A stretch of 64,000 bases of DNA from Bacteroidota bacterium (lineage in GTDB: Bacteria > Bacteroidota > Bacteroidia > Bacteroidales > Lentimicrobiaceae), in NCBI GenBank assembly GCA_009773515.1, contig WSXX01000012.1, forward strand, positions 1 to 64,000. Direction: 5' to 3'. The notes beneath the pieces were generated by a model that saw only the letters and a program-made list of their open reading frames with translations, searched no databases and was not told where the DNA came from. Shown here in pieces: positions 15,017 to 27,519 of this stretch. Both the position numbers and the translations under genes were made by a program. The first letter of the stretch is position 1. The number at the start of each line of letters is the position of its first letter.

Positions 15017-15069
15017 GACCTAACAAGTCGTAAGCATGTCCGCCTCGGGGTGGGAAGACTTGTTAGGTC
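15017..15069. repeat. isolated RAYT-type hairpin, long-loop form
   Basis: GACCTAACAAGTC at the left and GACTTGTTAGGTC at the right give a perfect 13-bp stem around a 27-base loop containing CCGCCTCG. The same long-loop form ends the array beside the transposase at 25358-25409, about 10 kb away. Confidence 0.8.
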
Positions 15070-17389: not shown

Positions 17390-17485
17390 ATTCAAAGATT
17401 CAAAGATTCAAAGATTCAATGATTCAAAGATTCAATGATTCAAAGATTCAAGGATTCAAGGATTCAAGGATTCAAAGATTCAAGG
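17390..17485. repeat. twelve ATTCAANG octamers
   Basis: Ninety-six bases are exactly twelve 8-bp units ATTCAA-A/T/G-G with no phase slip. They lie 31-126 bases upstream of the hcp start, probably in its leader or promoter. The variant seventh base (A, T or G) is arranged in blocks, as expected of expansion and contraction. Confidence 0.9.
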
Positions 17486-17490
17486 ATTTG

Positions 17491-22942: not shown

Positions 22943-23073
22943 CACTTCGACTCCGCCTGCCTGACTGCGCGGCAGGCAGGCTCAGTGTGACATTCGTTTA
23001 TAGTATACACTGCATCATTTTAATGCACTAATTATCAACTCTATACAATGTCCTCCTGAGCGGAGTCGAAGGA
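22943..23073. repeat. GACTCCGCTCAG palindromic repeat, copy B, with inserted palindrome
   Basis: It has the same arms and core as copy A (CACTTCGACTCCG ... CTGAGCGGAGTCGAAGGA). The left arm is split after CTCCG by a 25-base palindrome with CCTGCCTG and GGCAGGCAGG arms (about 22957-22980). Apart from that it is close to copies A and C. Confidence 0.85.
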
Positions 23074-23138
23074 TCGGACGAACAATCTGTCACTGATAGC
23101 GGTGTCAATGGCATCTATTCAATTTATTTTCATTAATG

Positions 23139-23167
23139 AAAGCCGTTGCTCCTTGTGACGGCTTTTT
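23139..23167 (+). terminator. rho-independent terminator downstream of typA
   Basis: AAAGCCGT and ACGGCTTT form an 8-bp stem with an 11-base loop followed by TT. It lies about 220 bases past the typA stop, after the repeat copy B. Confidence 0.65.
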
Positions 23168-23274
23168 GATTGATAATCAAACGCAGAAACAATTGCCTGC
23201 GAACATTAGCATTCGGCCTGATGTTTGATAAGCAAACCGGATCAACTTAATTTTATCTCTCAAATCAGATTTTT

Positions 23275-23877
23275 ATGAAAAAACTATTTTCCTTTTCAGG
23301 ATTACTGCTCACGATGATGCTTCTTAGCAGTTGCGAAATTTTAGAACAGGCCCAGCAGATGGCCAATCTTACAAAATGTGAATTTCGCCTGAATAGTGTT
23401 GACCAGTTGCGCCTGGCAGGGGTAAATATTCAGAATGTAAGGCAGTTCTCAGACCTGAATTTTATGGATGCAGCAAAAATTACAGCTGCTGCCGCTTCGG
23501 GTGGAAACCTGCCACTCAATTTTACACTGAATGTGGAAGTAAAAAATCCCAATTCAGCCACTGCAGGACTTAACAAGCTGGATTGGATTTTACTGATTGA
23601 TGATATTGAAATGACCTCAGGTGTCAACAATCAGCGGGTGCAGGTTGCTGCCAATGGCGGAACTTCTATAATCCCGCTCACCATTGGAATTGATCTCCGG
23701 CAGGCACTTCAGGGAAAAAGTGCGGATGCCATTGCCAACTTCGGACTTAATCTGGCAGGCGCAGGTAACCGCCCGACCCGAATTACCCTAAAAGCAAAAC
23801 CCACCATTATGGTAGGCTCGCAAACTATAGCTTATCCTGGATATTTAACGGTGGAGAATGAGTTTACTTCGAGGTAA
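23275..23877 (+). CDS. lipoprotein, LEA-like fold
   Basis: A 200-residue exported lipoprotein. The signal peptide ends in the lipobox LLSSC with the modified cysteine at residue 20. The body (about 85-190) has strand-rich sequence with NPNSATAGLNKLDWILLIDD, which resembles the LEA type 2 / WHy domain pattern (NPN followed by a short strand); this is a weak similarity. It has its own upstream region and lies ahead of the RAYT repeat array. Function unknown. Confidence 0.65.
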   Translation: MKKLFSFSGLLLTMMLLSSCEILEQAQQMANLTKCEFRLNSVDQLRLAGVNIQNVRQFSDLNFMDAAKITAAAASGGNLPLNFTLNVEVKNPNSATAGLNKLDWILLIDDIEMTSGVNNQRVQVAANGGTSIIPLTIGIDLRQALQGKSADAIANFGLNLAGAGNRPTRITLKAKPTIMVGSQTIAYPGYLTVENEFTSR

Positions 23878-23930
23878 ACAAATGGACATTTTGATTACAT
23901 GTATTTAGTAAGATGAGGCGCCAGAGGAAA

Positions 23931-24058
23931 GACCTACCAAGTCTTCTTCCGACTTGTGAGGTCTAAAAATCAAATCCAGATAGTGCCGAGTACATGTTTA
24001 TAGTAAGCCGGGACATCAGAAAGAAGACCTACCAAGTCTTCTTCCAACTTGTGAGGTC
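23931..24058. repeat. RAYT-type hairpins in inverted orientation (2 units)
   Basis: Units at 23931-23963 and 24026-24058 read GACCTACCAAGTC ... CTTGTGAGGTC. Taken as the reverse complement they match the units closer to the transposase, so this pair points the other way. Each is 33 bases and the starts are 95 bp apart. Confidence 0.8.
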
Positions 24059-24177
24059 TAAAAATCAAATCCAGATTGTTGGCCTGTTTACTCAATGAAG
24101 GGAGATTAGCAATTATTTCAGCATGAGGCGTATAGTTTTAAAACAGACAATCCGGATTTCGGTATAATCGACAAGAA

Positions 24178-24487
24178 GACCTAACAAGTTGGAAGAAAAC
24201 TTGTTAGGTCATGTCAATATCTGATAGGAGGAATTCAGCATATTCGGCAAGAAGACCTCACAAGTTGGAAGAAAACTTGTTAGGTCATGTCAATATCTGG
24301 TAGGCGGAAATACAGTATAATCGACAAGAAGACCTTACAAGTTGAAAGAAAACTTGTTAGGTCAGCACCATGACCTGTCAGGCCAGATTCCTTACCATCG
24401 ACAAGAAGACCTCACAAGTTGAAAGAAAACTTGTTAGGTCACATCCTGCAAGAAGACTCCACAAGTTGAAAGAAAACCTGTTAGGTC
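24178..24487. repeat. RAYT-type hairpin array, left block (5 units)
   Basis: Five 33-base units start at 24178, 24254, 24331, 24408 and 24455. Each is GACCT-N-ACAAGTT, a short loop, then AACTTGTTAGGTC (a variant in the last unit). Starts are 76, 77, 77 and 47 bp apart. The first unit is a perfect 13-bp stem; two others carry one fixed C-T mismatch at stem position 6. The linkers also repeat: AGTATAATCGACAAGAA or CAAGAA precedes most units. The array ends 17 bases before the transposase stop codon. Confidence 0.9.
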
Positions 24488-24504
24488 AGTGGTTCTTTCG
24501 TGAA

Positions 24505-25074
24505 TTAAAACTCTAAATCCAATATGGTATTTTTCTGAGCGTTAATCAGATATTCTGCTGTTTCAATTCCATCGAATATCTGAATTGGGTATTCCATCTT
24601 TAGGAAGTTTGAATCCTTTTTCAGGTATTCATTCCATGAACTCCACAGGTAATCTTTTGCATCCGTTACAAATCCATGATGTACCGGATTATTTTGAATA
24701 TAGATGAATATATTCCTGAAATATTCTTCGGTTGCAACTCGTTCGCGATGGAAATGCTCCTGAAATAAGCTTCCTGTTCGTGTGTAGTACTTGTTGTAAC
24801 TTTTTGTATAAGAATTAAATAGATTAGATAATGCTTGGGCTGGTAATCGGGGTTCCGGAACTTTTAACTCGGAGGTTTCTTTAACTCTCAATAAGAAATG
24901 AAAATGGTTAGGCATTAGACAGTATGCGTAAATGTCATAGTAAGGAGTTAGAAAAAAGGAAGCTCTGTTTAAAAAATACCGATAGTTTTCTTCAGCTTTG
25001 AAGATGTTTTCTTTGTTGTTTCCACGATTATAAATATGATAAACAGCCCCAGGTTCTATGATGTCTTTTTTCAT
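24505..25074 (-). CDS. REP-associated tyrosine transposase (RAYT, Y1/TnpA_REP type)
   Basis: A 189-residue Y1 HUH nuclease related to IS200/IS605 TnpA. The HUH motif is His57-Phe-His59 in MPNHFHFLLRV, the N-terminus is the family's PGAVYHIYNRGNNKENIF, and Tyr125 in NIFIYIQNNPVHHGF is the likely catalytic tyrosine. Known RAYTs bind and cut short REP hairpins and are thought to spread them. Here hairpin arrays lie on both sides (23931-24487 and 25140-25409), which is the REPtron arrangement. It is full length and looks intact. No accessory genes are present. Confidence 0.9.
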   Translation of the reverse strand: MKKDIIEPGAVYHIYNRGNNKENIFKAEENYRYFLNRASFFLTPYYDIYAYCLMPNHFHFLLRVKETSELKVPEPRLPAQALSNLFNSYTKSYNKYYTRTGSLFQEHFHRERVATEEYFRNIFIYIQNNPVHHGFVTDAKDYLWSSWNEYLKKDSNFLKMEYPIQIFDGIETAEYLINAQKNTILDLEF

Positions 25075-25139
25075 ATTTGAAAAGTTTGATTTTTTTTATT
25101 TTGATCTAATAAGTTGGAATTCAGTATAATCGACAAGAA

Positions 25140-25409
25140 GATCTCACAAGTTGAAAGAAAACTTGTTAGGTCACATCCTACAAGAAGACCTCACAAGTTG
25201 AAAGAAAACTTGTTAGGTCACATCCTACAAGAGGACCTCACAAGTCGGAAGACGACTTGTTAGGTCACATCCTGATCTGGCAAACCGGAATTCAGTATAA
25301 TCGACAAGAAGACCTCACAAGTTGAAAGAAAACTTGTTAGGTCATATCCTACAAGAAGACCTCACAATTTTAAAGCCTGTTCGCCTCGAGCGGAAAGACT
25401 TGTTAGGTC
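25140..25409. repeat. RAYT-type hairpin array, right block (5 units)
   Basis: Units start at 25140, 25187, 25234, 25311 and 25358: spacings of 47, 47, 77 and 47 bp. The first four are 33 bases; the last is a 52-base long-loop form with CGCCTCGAGCG. Linkers are either 14 bases (ACATCCTACAAGAA) or 44 bases (the same start plus an AGTATAATCGACAAGAA end). All are in the same orientation as the left block. The array ends 4 bases before the stop codon of the next gene. Confidence 0.9.
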
Positions 25410-25413
25410 ACAT

Positions 25414-27519
25414 TTACTTCACCACCAATTTCCCCGTTCTTACTTCATTACCATTTATCAATGTCAGCACATATACGCCTTTGGAAAGGTTGGCTGAGGA
25501 TATTGTCATAACCTGATTTCCATTTACTGTGGAAGCTGTCGTTTTTTTCAAAACCACACGACCAGTAAGATCACTTATGGTGAGTTTGCCATTTGCTGAA
25601 AGTGATTCATATTCAACAGAAAAACTTTCACCTGCTGGATTGGGATATACCTTCAATGAATTTTTTGTATCCGAACCCGGGAAATATGAATTTGCAACCG
25701 GCAGCTTTTCGCTTGTACAAAGCATTGCACCTTCATTTCCGCCGATAAACCCAAGGGTATTATCATAAAATGAAACAACGTTCAGGTCGTAGATGGCATC
25801 GTTTTCGTAAACCGACCATGTGCCACCAATGCACTGAAGAATGGTGCCGTTTCGGCCTACTGCCCACCCATACATATATTCATCCAGATGCACCGATAGC
25901 AATTCTTCAGTGGTAAGCGGAGGTACTTCGGTCCAGTTGGTGCCATCAAATACCGCAATCAAACCATTGGTTCCAACAGCAACTACCTGATAGTGGCCGA
26001 AAATGCACAGATCGTTGAAGCTGCCGTTGCTGGTTTCATAAACTTCCTGCCAGGTGTTGGTAAAGTATTTGTAAAAGATTGCCCCACTATCTGCGTCGTT
26101 GTGACGCTTAACACTCATCCAGGCAGCTTCCCATTCGCTATTCCTTTTGTTTGAATTAATGGGAATTGACATCATAAACTTTAAGTCCGAAATGCTGTCC
26201 TGAAATGCTAATTCTTCAACTGTAAACTGGCCATTTGTATAGGTAAATATGGTGTTTCGCTGCGTAAATACCACATCTGCTCCAATATTGTTTATTGAAG
26301 AAATAAATGAAGATTCATCAGGAAACAAGATTTCTGTAATTATTCCATTATTGTAAGAGAAAAGTTTTGTTTCAGGCCAGAAAGGAAAGATTGCTTCATG
26401 GTGATACGCACCAAAGTAACCCAAATCCTCACTTTGGAAATCAATAACATTAATGGTGTAATCCGTTAGATTAAAGATGTTGCTCCATTCTCCAGCGTCA
26501 TATTTCCATAAGCCACTGTTGTGTGCTGCCAAAAAACCAAGGTTTGGCTTTACAAATTGCAGATCAAGGATGCTGTCGTACATAAATCCATTGGCAAGCA
26601 TATGGCTGCCATCTTCTATCTTATGGATGTATCCCAGCGCATCAGATGCCATACATTTTGTATTGCTAAGTGCTTCAACAGAAGTGAAAATCTGTTCGCG
26701 TTTTTCATGAACAAAAGCGGGCTGCCAGACACCATCACTGTATTGATGAATAGTTGGGTAGAGGTCGTAAAACATGGGCCCGGCATTCTGAAGGCCGAAG
26801 CCATTTTGCCTGTTGGTAAATGAAATTCCGCTGTTGCAGCTTCCTGATGGAACCTGCACCCATCCACTGCCATCGTTTTCAAAAAGTAAACCTTCCTCAG
26901 GAATGGTTTTTCCATTCATCAACATATACTCACCAGCTTTTTCAAGTGTGTGAAAAGTATAATAATTGTCGTAAACAAAACTATTGTCGTTTGACCAAAC
27001 ACCATTTTCAAATTTGAACAGGTGGGATGAATCGCTGCCGGCCCAGCCTAAGTTTTCATTAAGAAATCCAATTGTTTCGTTGCCACTCAGGTTGGCATCA
27101 ACCAGCCATTCGTTGCCGTTATATCTTAATATGGCATCACCTGCTGCCCAGCAGTGGTTTTCGTTTATGCAGCAAACGTCTTTCAGCACACCGGTTATGG
27201 GCGAAGTTACTTGTGTCCAGGAGCCATATTGATATCGTAAAATGTTACCCTCTGCACCAACTGCCCATCCCATATCAGGATTGACAAAAGAAACGCCAAA
27301 TAAATCTGTATTTACCGGGCTGTCCATTATTGACCATTCTCCGTTAATGTAATGCAATATTTTTCCTTGGTTGCCTACCGCATAGCCTTCATTGGCTGAT
27401 ATAAAATGTATATCGTTGATTTGGTTTTGCCCAGTGGTTGGATTAACCCAATGCCAGGACTGCGCGAGACTTCCGTAGCCAATGATCAGGGCTGAAATGA
27501 GAAGTGTAATTTTTTTCAT
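25414..27519 (-). CDS. T9SS-secreted beta-propeller protein (YCF48-like)
   Basis: A 701-residue exported protein. Residues 1-19 form a signal peptide ending in SLAQ. Many repeats of the form F-x-x-x-x-x-G-(Y/W)-(A/F)-(V/A)-G and a following I-L-x-Y/F strand (NEGYAVGNQGKILHY, DMGWAVGAEGNILRY, YGWAVGRNGTILQ) indicate a propeller like plant YCF48/HCF136. The C-terminal T9SS type A sorting domain (about 620-701, SLKVYPNPAGESFSVEY and KGVYVLTLINGNEVRTG) marks it for secretion through the type IX system. Its stop lies 4 bases from the hairpin array. Substrate or partner unknown. Confidence 0.8.
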   Translation of the reverse strand: MKKITLLISALIIGYGSLAQSWHWVNPTTGQNQINDIHFISANEGYAVGNQGKILHYINGEWSIMDSPVNTDLFGVSFVNPDMGWAVGAEGNILRYQYGSWTQVTSPITGVLKDVCCINENHCWAAGDAILRYNGNEWLVDANLSGNETIGFLNENLGWAGSDSSHLFKFENGVWSNDNSFVYDNYYTFHTLEKAGEYMLMNGKTIPEEGLLFENDGSGWVQVPSGSCNSGISFTNRQNGFGLQNAGPMFYDLYPTIHQYSDGVWQPAFVHEKREQIFTSVEALSNTKCMASDALGYIHKIEDGSHMLANGFMYDSILDLQFVKPNLGFLAAHNSGLWKYDAGEWSNIFNLTDYTINVIDFQSEDLGYFGAYHHEAIFPFWPETKLFSYNNGIITEILFPDESSFISSINNIGADVVFTQRNTIFTYTNGQFTVEELAFQDSISDLKFMMSIPINSNKRNSEWEAAWMSVKRHNDADSGAIFYKYFTNTWQEVYETSNGSFNDLCIFGHYQVVAVGTNGLIAVFDGTNWTEVPPLTTEELLSVHLDEYMYGWAVGRNGTILQCIGGTWSVYENDAIYDLNVVSFYDNTLGFIGGNEGAMLCTSEKLPVANSYFPGSDTKNSLKVYPNPAGESFSVEYESLSANGKLTISDLTGRVVLKKTTASTVNGNQVMTISSANLSKGVYVLTLINGNEVRTGKLVVK

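Follow-up and report, generated by a model that had tools for sequence, protein, structure and literature searches.

What brought a dozen hairpins to both sides of a single transposase gene, at spacings that keep returning to 47 and 77 bp, in a genome of the Bacteroidota? The locus lies within a 64,000-nt stretch of contig WSXX01000012.1 (assembly GCA_009773515.1, Lentimicrobiaceae), here called the window, and the initial annotation described it as a REP-associated tyrosine transposase (RAYT) bracketed by REP-type hairpins at quantised distances. We read it, with a probability of about 85%, as a REPtron in which a RAYT sits among its cognate REPs, the arrays arose by local tandem duplication, and the spacing simply follows from how long the units are.

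Results

Hairpin arrays on both sides of the transposase gene

The RAYT gene is intact as annotated, an open reading frame without internal stops, and the hairpins around it number twelve (33-52 bp each), with seven to its left (23931-24487) and five to its right (25140-25409). A loose hairpin pattern finds 13 hairpins in the whole window, the twelve at the RAYT and one lone copy (Table 1), whereas 30 simulated 64-kb sequences of the window's nearest-neighbour composition, scanned with the same pattern, gave no hairpin in 22 cases and one in 8. The bracketing is confirmed. Hairpins 1 and 2 together form a 92-nt direct repeat, 85% identical at 95-bp spacing. These two outermost left units had been called inverted, and their loop indeed is (TTCTTCC), but the A-rich foot still lies on the left, and it therefore looks as if the hairpin core, not the whole unit, was inverted.

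Of the two border genes, the LEA_2-domain gene is matched in 17 of the 19 genomes searched, its own included, and the T9SS-tail domain on the other side agrees with the Bacteroidota relatives in placing the system in this phylum, as the annotation had it. Farther to the left, positions 17390-17488 of the window hold an 8-bp tandem repeat, ATTCAAAG, in 12.4 copies.

Table 1. Features of the RAYT site, its borders and the lone hairpin, in window coordinates.
Feature	Position	Strand	Remarks
Lone REP hairpin	15017..15069	+	long-loop variant, outside the RAYT site
LEA_2-domain gene	23275..23877	+	left border of RAYT site
REP hairpin 1	23931..23963	-	loop inverted
REP hairpin 2	24026..24058	-	loop inverted; duplicates hairpin 1 at 95-bp spacing
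Tandem array, period 77	24153..24441	+	3.8 copies, 84% matches, downstream of RAYT; TRF
REP hairpin 3	24178..24210	+	perfect stem
REP hairpin 4	24254..24286	+	
REP hairpin 5	24331..24363	+	
REP hairpin 6	24408..24440	+	
REP hairpin 7	24455..24487	+	degenerate
RAYT (Y1/HUH transposase)	24505..25074	-	189 aa; PF01797; H57, H59, Y125, N129 (protein numbering)
Tandem array, period 47	25133..25273	+	3.0 copies, 93% matches, upstream of RAYT; TRF
REP hairpin 8	25140..25172	+	
REP hairpin 9	25187..25219	+	
REP hairpin 10	25234..25266	+	
44-base linker	25267..25310	+	14-base linker ACATCCTACAAGAA is the same minus 30 internal bases
REP hairpin 11	25311..25343	+	
REP hairpin 12	25358..25409	+	long-loop variant, 26-base loop
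YCF48-like/T9SS-tail protein gene	25414..27519	-	right border of RAYT site

A RAYT with the active site of the Y1/HUH family

The protein matches Pfam PF01797 (Y1_Tnp; E 5.4e-6) and, at 68.3 bits and thus below the curated cut-off of 80, NCBIfam NF047646 (REP-associated tyrosine transposase), which is the sole NCBIfam match in all eight RAYT members scanned. His57, His59, Tyr125 and Asn129 are invariant among 49 aligned sequences, namely the window protein and 48 of 78 stop-free translations. An AlphaFold model built with this alignment (pLDDT 92.8) has as its best PDB match 4er8 (E 3.3e-8), a structure of E. coli TnpA-REP in complex with a REP hairpin, with IS200/IS605 transposases next, and a profile search of PDB sequences returned 4er8 as the only match at E 0.001. 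A Y1/HUH fold with HUH motif and catalytic tyrosine, together with flanking hairpins of which the genome holds further copies, thus upholds the annotated pairing of a RAYT with REP-type hairpins. Since dN is 0.07 and dS 0.91 between the RAYT genes of this genome (G000) and of a relative (G012; 86% identical), the gene is, judged by these rates, under purifying selection.

In the same pair of genomes, the dS of the RAYT lies below that of LEA and TypA (1.7). In the YCF48-like/T9SS-tail gene, the 3' third (window 25414-26170 approx.; L100 5300-6063 approx.) is 81-86% identical with dS of about 0.5-0.7, and the 5' part is 45-59% identical and mostly saturated. The REPtron block may have been exchanged through homologous recombination.

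A repeat unit dispersed between genes

Matches to the 13-nt hairpin arm with at most one mismatch number 115 in the 5.03-Mb genome, 100 of them recorded individually, against 11 for a reversed control. Stretches fetched from six genomes gave a sample of 151 hairpins in 86 clusters (G000 62, G001 30, G012 22, G007 16, G004 13 and G015 8); the scan behind it misses degenerate units, such as most of an 87-bp array in G012, and two array members on contig C96 of that genome were hence scored as solitary. The shared unit spans 39 nt and consists of AAGAA, the 13-nt arm, a loop that usually reads G(A/G)AAGAA (7 nt), the second 13-nt arm and an A. Conservation in the 22 solitary copies of G000 is 91-100% at each position of the foot AAGAA and 91% at the following A, with only A-richness farther out; over the 51 solitary copies of all six genomes the values are 90-98% and 88%, and in the relatives' 29 the foot is kept at 90-97%, but many of these copies share a longer repeat. 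In G001, G004 and G007 (L120-L135), the hairpin often lies inside an interspersed repeat of greater length (about 150-400 bp), which, together with orthologous sites in close relatives, makes the orientation and flank counts given below partly dependent.

Like canonical REPs, the unit is a palindrome of 20-40 nt found in many copies and mainly between genes (145 of the 151 hairpins lie outside ORFs of at least 100 aa, and 6 overlap such ORFs); the canonical foot GT[AG]G is absent, AAGAA being found instead in solitary copies. As 51 of the 86 clusters consist of a single hairpin, the repeat does not behave as a REPIN, whose mobile unit is an inverted pair; inverted pairs do occur at the G004 and G007 site. 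The stem mismatch described as fixed sits at position 6 in 11 of the 13 window hairpins, and this is the most often mismatched pair throughout, but it is not constant (30 of 62 hairpins in the genome sample, 13 of 51 solitary copies from six genomes). Long-loop variants (loop of 26-27 nt) account for 9 of the 151 hairpins, among them the lone copy and hairpin 12 of the window, and their loops hold sequence resembling a nested CCGCC...GGCGG hairpin.

Two other kinds of repeat were rejected on features of the hairpin, the linkers and the RAYT pairing. The arm fits what we take to be the R-box pattern of integron attC sites, but the 33-nt hairpin lacks extrahelical bases, no Rfam match was obtained within positions 23000-26500 at E up to 1, and the pairing with a RAYT explains the hairpin; in a CRISPR-like array the linkers would not themselves be repeats, as they are here.

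Pairing of RAYTs with hairpins across species

From a profile of eight RAYTs we took the best 80 of at least 566 relatives, which by record title are mainly Bacteroidota; a few are MAGs whose titles name Chlorobiota or Chloroflexota/Chloroflexi. Within 300-bp flanks, 36 of the 75 testable RAYT genes at these loci have related hairpins on both sides, and none of 81 control genes taken from the same contigs does (Fisher p 1e-14); for hairpins of any sort the counts are 60 of the 75 RAYTs and 20 of the 81 control genes. This gene-flank control supersedes a comparison of hairpin density near and far from RAYTs (2.31 vs 0.17 per kb), which is biased because the far windows are probably mostly coding. 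Arm similarity rises weakly with RAYT identity (rho 0.23, with 0 of 999 permutations as high) over the 66 of 83 loci (the 80, the window and two genus loci) that have a hairpin with a loop of 3-12.

Two individual cases illustrate the pairing. The best-scoring outside RAYT among the best 80 relatives (L157), 48% identical to that of the window, carries on one side a hairpin that includes the exact 13-nt arm, GACCTAACAAGTT, and on the other a one-base variant. Within the same genome as the window, a 44% identical paralogue on contig C4 is flanked by a related hairpin of its own, AACCTTCCAGGTT, the loop of which is also found in the window REP; this arm has 74 exact copies in its own genome and 0-4 in each of the other 18. 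A further paralogous RAYT (L139/L055, G000:C61:109375-110037) contains, between HUH and Tyr, an in-frame insert with a REP-like inverted pair, ACCCCTGACAGGGTT ... AACCCTGTCAGGGGT.

The arm has an inverted repeat of its own, 4 bp or longer, at 50 of the 66 loci (mean 4.6 vs 2.6 in shuffled arms) and in 16 of 24 collapsed arm families (mean 3.96 vs 2.48, none of 2000 shuffles exceeding 3.0), while for hairpins far from RAYTs the count is 8 of 29; the arm of the window REP is palindromic only in part (3 of 4 pairs, judged by eye). Overall, Bacteroidota-type RAYTs commonly come paired with such hairpins, which are built as twin palindromes and, in the present system, have a foot of another kind.

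Orientation at gene ends

In 49 one-orientation clusters of tandem or convergent context, the T-rich tail (TTCTT) lies downstream of the gene 3' end by 38:11 (p 1.4e-4; convergent 18:6, tandem 20:5), four mixed clusters having been set aside and convergent pairs scored by the nearest gene end. The own genome alone gives 20:5 (p 0.004), and the count for solitary copies no farther than 200 bp from a gene end is 19:2; these p values are optimistic, given mechanical ORF calling and the orthology of some sites. That the bias holds in convergent context argues against a pure replication-strand effect, and an insertion preference for A-rich target strands at gene ends is an alternative source of it.

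The same bias speaks for taking the hairpins primarily as elements that terminate transcription or stabilise mRNA ends and that selection has spread and maintained, with the RAYT as a coincidental neighbour, and so does the abundance of the hairpins in relatives without an orthologous RAYT. We nonetheless consider this improbable, since RAYT genes of other species have matching hairpins on both sides far more often than control genes, paralogous RAYTs bear different matching hairpins, and 12 of the 65 clusters stand between divergently oriented genes. A simple terminator scan passed 1 of the 12 window hairpins, with 1.0 expected by chance. With a REPtron as the preferred reading, some copies behind genes may still serve, or be tolerated, as transcript-end hairpins, and the orientation bias offers a testable reason for the persistence of the repeat where a matching transposase is undetected.

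The same site in relatives

At orthologous sites that lack the RAYT, the hairpins number 0 in G015, 1 in G001, 2 in G004 (an inverted pair) and 6 in G007, the last with spacings of 47, 113, 47, 113 and 46 bp and, in those of 46-47 bp, dissimilar linkers of 13-14 bases; G012, which has a RAYT at the site, carries about 19. A single orthologous site with 0 to about 19 units provides a comparative case of REP array growth beside a RAYT. The G012 RAYT is an orthologue accompanied by the same 14- and 44-base linkers, differently ordered, its upstream array passing from a long-loop unit through four 14-base linkers to linkers of 44, 50 and 93 bases and its downstream array consisting of a different repeat (87/88 bp, 9.3 copies). 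The LEA_2 side and the RAYT side are on separate contigs in G012, with the LEA_2 gene near a contig end, and just beyond the outermost hairpin on C96 (L100 8296-9840) there is an ORF resembling an IS21-type transposase. In 11 further relatives, where the locus was fetched around the LEA_2 gene, no complete hairpin was found near that gene, and the right neighbour differs in some.

Exact arms are numerous in the hairpin-rich relatives (G015 43, G007 22, G001 21 and G004 16), in none of which a RAYT orthologue was found: G015 and G007 gave no match at E 0.001, and the closest match in G001 and G004 is 47% identical and carries another hairpin. Other Y1 genes are present in all four, and as the G001 assembly comprises two contigs (96% complete), an assembly gap is an unlikely cause of the missing RAYT. 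The suspicion that, apart from this genome, the hairpin might be confined to genomes without the transposase is half borne out, in that it abounds in these four. The simplest reading is that the hairpin-rich relatives lost the RAYT and the repeats persisted, and another mobiliser instead of a lost RAYT is possible; for E. coli strains, loss of the RAYT has been documented (PMC3733652). We rejected the hairpin-rich genomes as one clade, with which a two-gene tree disagrees and against which an AU test speaks (p 0.013), 7 of the 13 inner branches being weak. Excision, clean empty-site junctions and recent transposition were not seen, including in a non-systematic blastn comparison of the G001, G004 and G007 stretches.

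Array periods as probable local history

From left to right, the start-to-start spacings are 95, 152, 76, 77, 77 and 47 bp, then 685 bp, then 47, 47, 77 and 47 bp, so that the annotated series of 76/77/77/47 and 47/47/77/47 are exact, with 95 and 152 standing before them. The two linker lengths are equally real, at 14 and 43/44 bases. The extra segment said to be fixed in the longer linker, AGTATAATCGACAAGAA, is exact in two of the four long linkers and inexact in the other two, and the terminal CAAGAA is common to most short linkers. In the right array, the 14-base linker equals the 44-base linker without exactly 30 internal bases, and the arrays of 77 and 47 bp recovered by Tandem Repeats Finder indicate that linkers were copied together with the hairpins.

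Such regularity could in principle be functional, an enzyme or a nucleoid protein needing hairpins 47 or 77 bp apart and selection keeping them there. Spacings of 46-47 bp recur at the site in G000, G012 and G007, in the last with linkers that are dissimilar, and make up 10 of the 23 spacings at the RAYT site and its orthologues (77 bp, 4 of 23); the paralogous REP AACCTTCCAGGTT of the own genome also forms a two-period tandem array, of 93/94 and 129/130 bp (L136, G000:C30, 2870-4003). We hold a functional spacing to be very unlikely, since the linkers within G000, and likewise within G012, are almost copies of one another, which is what duplication would produce, none of 39 spacings outside the site and its orthologues is 47 or 77 bp (range 62-429 bp, all stretches fetched), and 11 of the 80 RAYT loci from other species bear tandem hairpin arrays, with basic periods of 41-144 bp (control stretches, 0 of 146). 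Spacing thus varies freely elsewhere, and the proposal that it is quantised by rule gives way to tandem repetition with one 30-bp length difference. Given the copying of linkers, the variable counts in relatives and the free spacing at other loci, the array periods are best read as local history.

Discussion

A model for the REPtron

By analogy with E. coli TnpA-REP (PMC8266576), the RAYT would bind the single-stranded hairpin through stem, loop and AAGAA foot, nick beside it through Tyr125 and re-join it elsewhere. The REP unit is dispersed over intergenic positions, singly or in small groups, and the RAYT is the presumed cause of this dispersal. Units at the RAYT site would have multiplied by ordinary tandem duplication, as the identity of unit plus linker and the differences in copy number among relatives suggest; one loss or gain of 30 bp in a linker would have given rise to the 47- and 77-bp units, both copied by later duplications, and the spacing would follow from unit length and carry no signal. 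That the locus is instead an IS200-like insertion sequence that continues to transpose as a whole, with the hairpins as its ends, would suit an HUH/Y1 enzyme between hairpins with IS200/IS605 transposases as next structural matches, but is hardly credible for a gene that is single-copy at such identity in its genome (next relative 44%), is far outnumbered by the hairpins and shows low dN relative to dS.

More tentatively, and with clear doubt on our side, the system could represent a large and poorly described GTAG-less Bacteroidota branch in which each arm, a small palindrome in its own right, consists of two mini-REPs fused in inverted orientation that could fold into a single long hairpin or two short ones, AAGAA is here recognised before both arms, and the host keeps oriented copies at transcript ends even after loss of the RAYT. 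A natural system without GTAG also makes the guide role of GTAG directly testable.

Comparison with known systems

The E. coli REPtron (TnpA-REP, PDB 4ER8, REP/BIME) shares with the present locus the HUH/Y1 fold and active site, hairpins flanking both sides, dispersed intergenic palindromes and one stem position that is often mismatched. It differs in its foot, GTAG there and AAGAA here, and in its WQ motif, the W of which is replaced by F here (F104-Q105); the present system has a 13-bp stem, a 7-base purine loop and clusters that mostly consist of single hairpins.

Within the Bacteroidetes, Quentin 2018 (PMC6006769) distinguishes TnpA-REP subclasses, one of them with atypical GTAG-less structures. 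This subclass, 2.6, resembles our system in phylum and in having GTAG-less atypical structures with copies elsewhere, and differs in its motifs (NH[LIV]H, WQ and YIH[QN]NP, compared with NHFH, FQ and YIQNNP in the window RAYT). Subclass 2.4 (NH[IFV]H, WQ, YIxNNP) agrees in the first and third motif but not in WQ, and has long or double-foot REPs with GT[AG]G, a foot that is not found here; its REPs are inserted in frame in the gene, which here holds only for the paralogue on C61. The motif set of the window RAYT agrees fully with neither subclass. The same source suggests that double-foot REPs could stem from a central deletion in an inverted pair, and another (PMC3733652) describes TIRYTs/TIRtrons, in which GTAG-less repeats, some of them "double palindromic", flank Y1 transposases; twin-palindrome arms are therefore not unheard of, the named TIRtron examples being from other taxa and likened here by description.

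For the arrays, the closest parallel is Pseudomonas fluorescens SBW25, where Bertels & Rainey 2011 (PMC3116915) describe ordered REP arrays in which two distances alternate (112/72 bp; 12 REPs in the largest array) and, as a separate finding, clusters of REPINs next to the three RAYTs. Phylum, hairpin and foot differ, and two REP types alternate there, whereas one type with two linker lengths is found here. To call a Bacteroidota array with two periods little described was accordingly an overstatement, kin cases being covered by these accounts and by Quentin 2018. No publication on the present hairpin or on AAGAA-footed REPs was found among the open-access papers searched, and as far as these searches show, the AAGAA-footed system is new in detail and known in kind.
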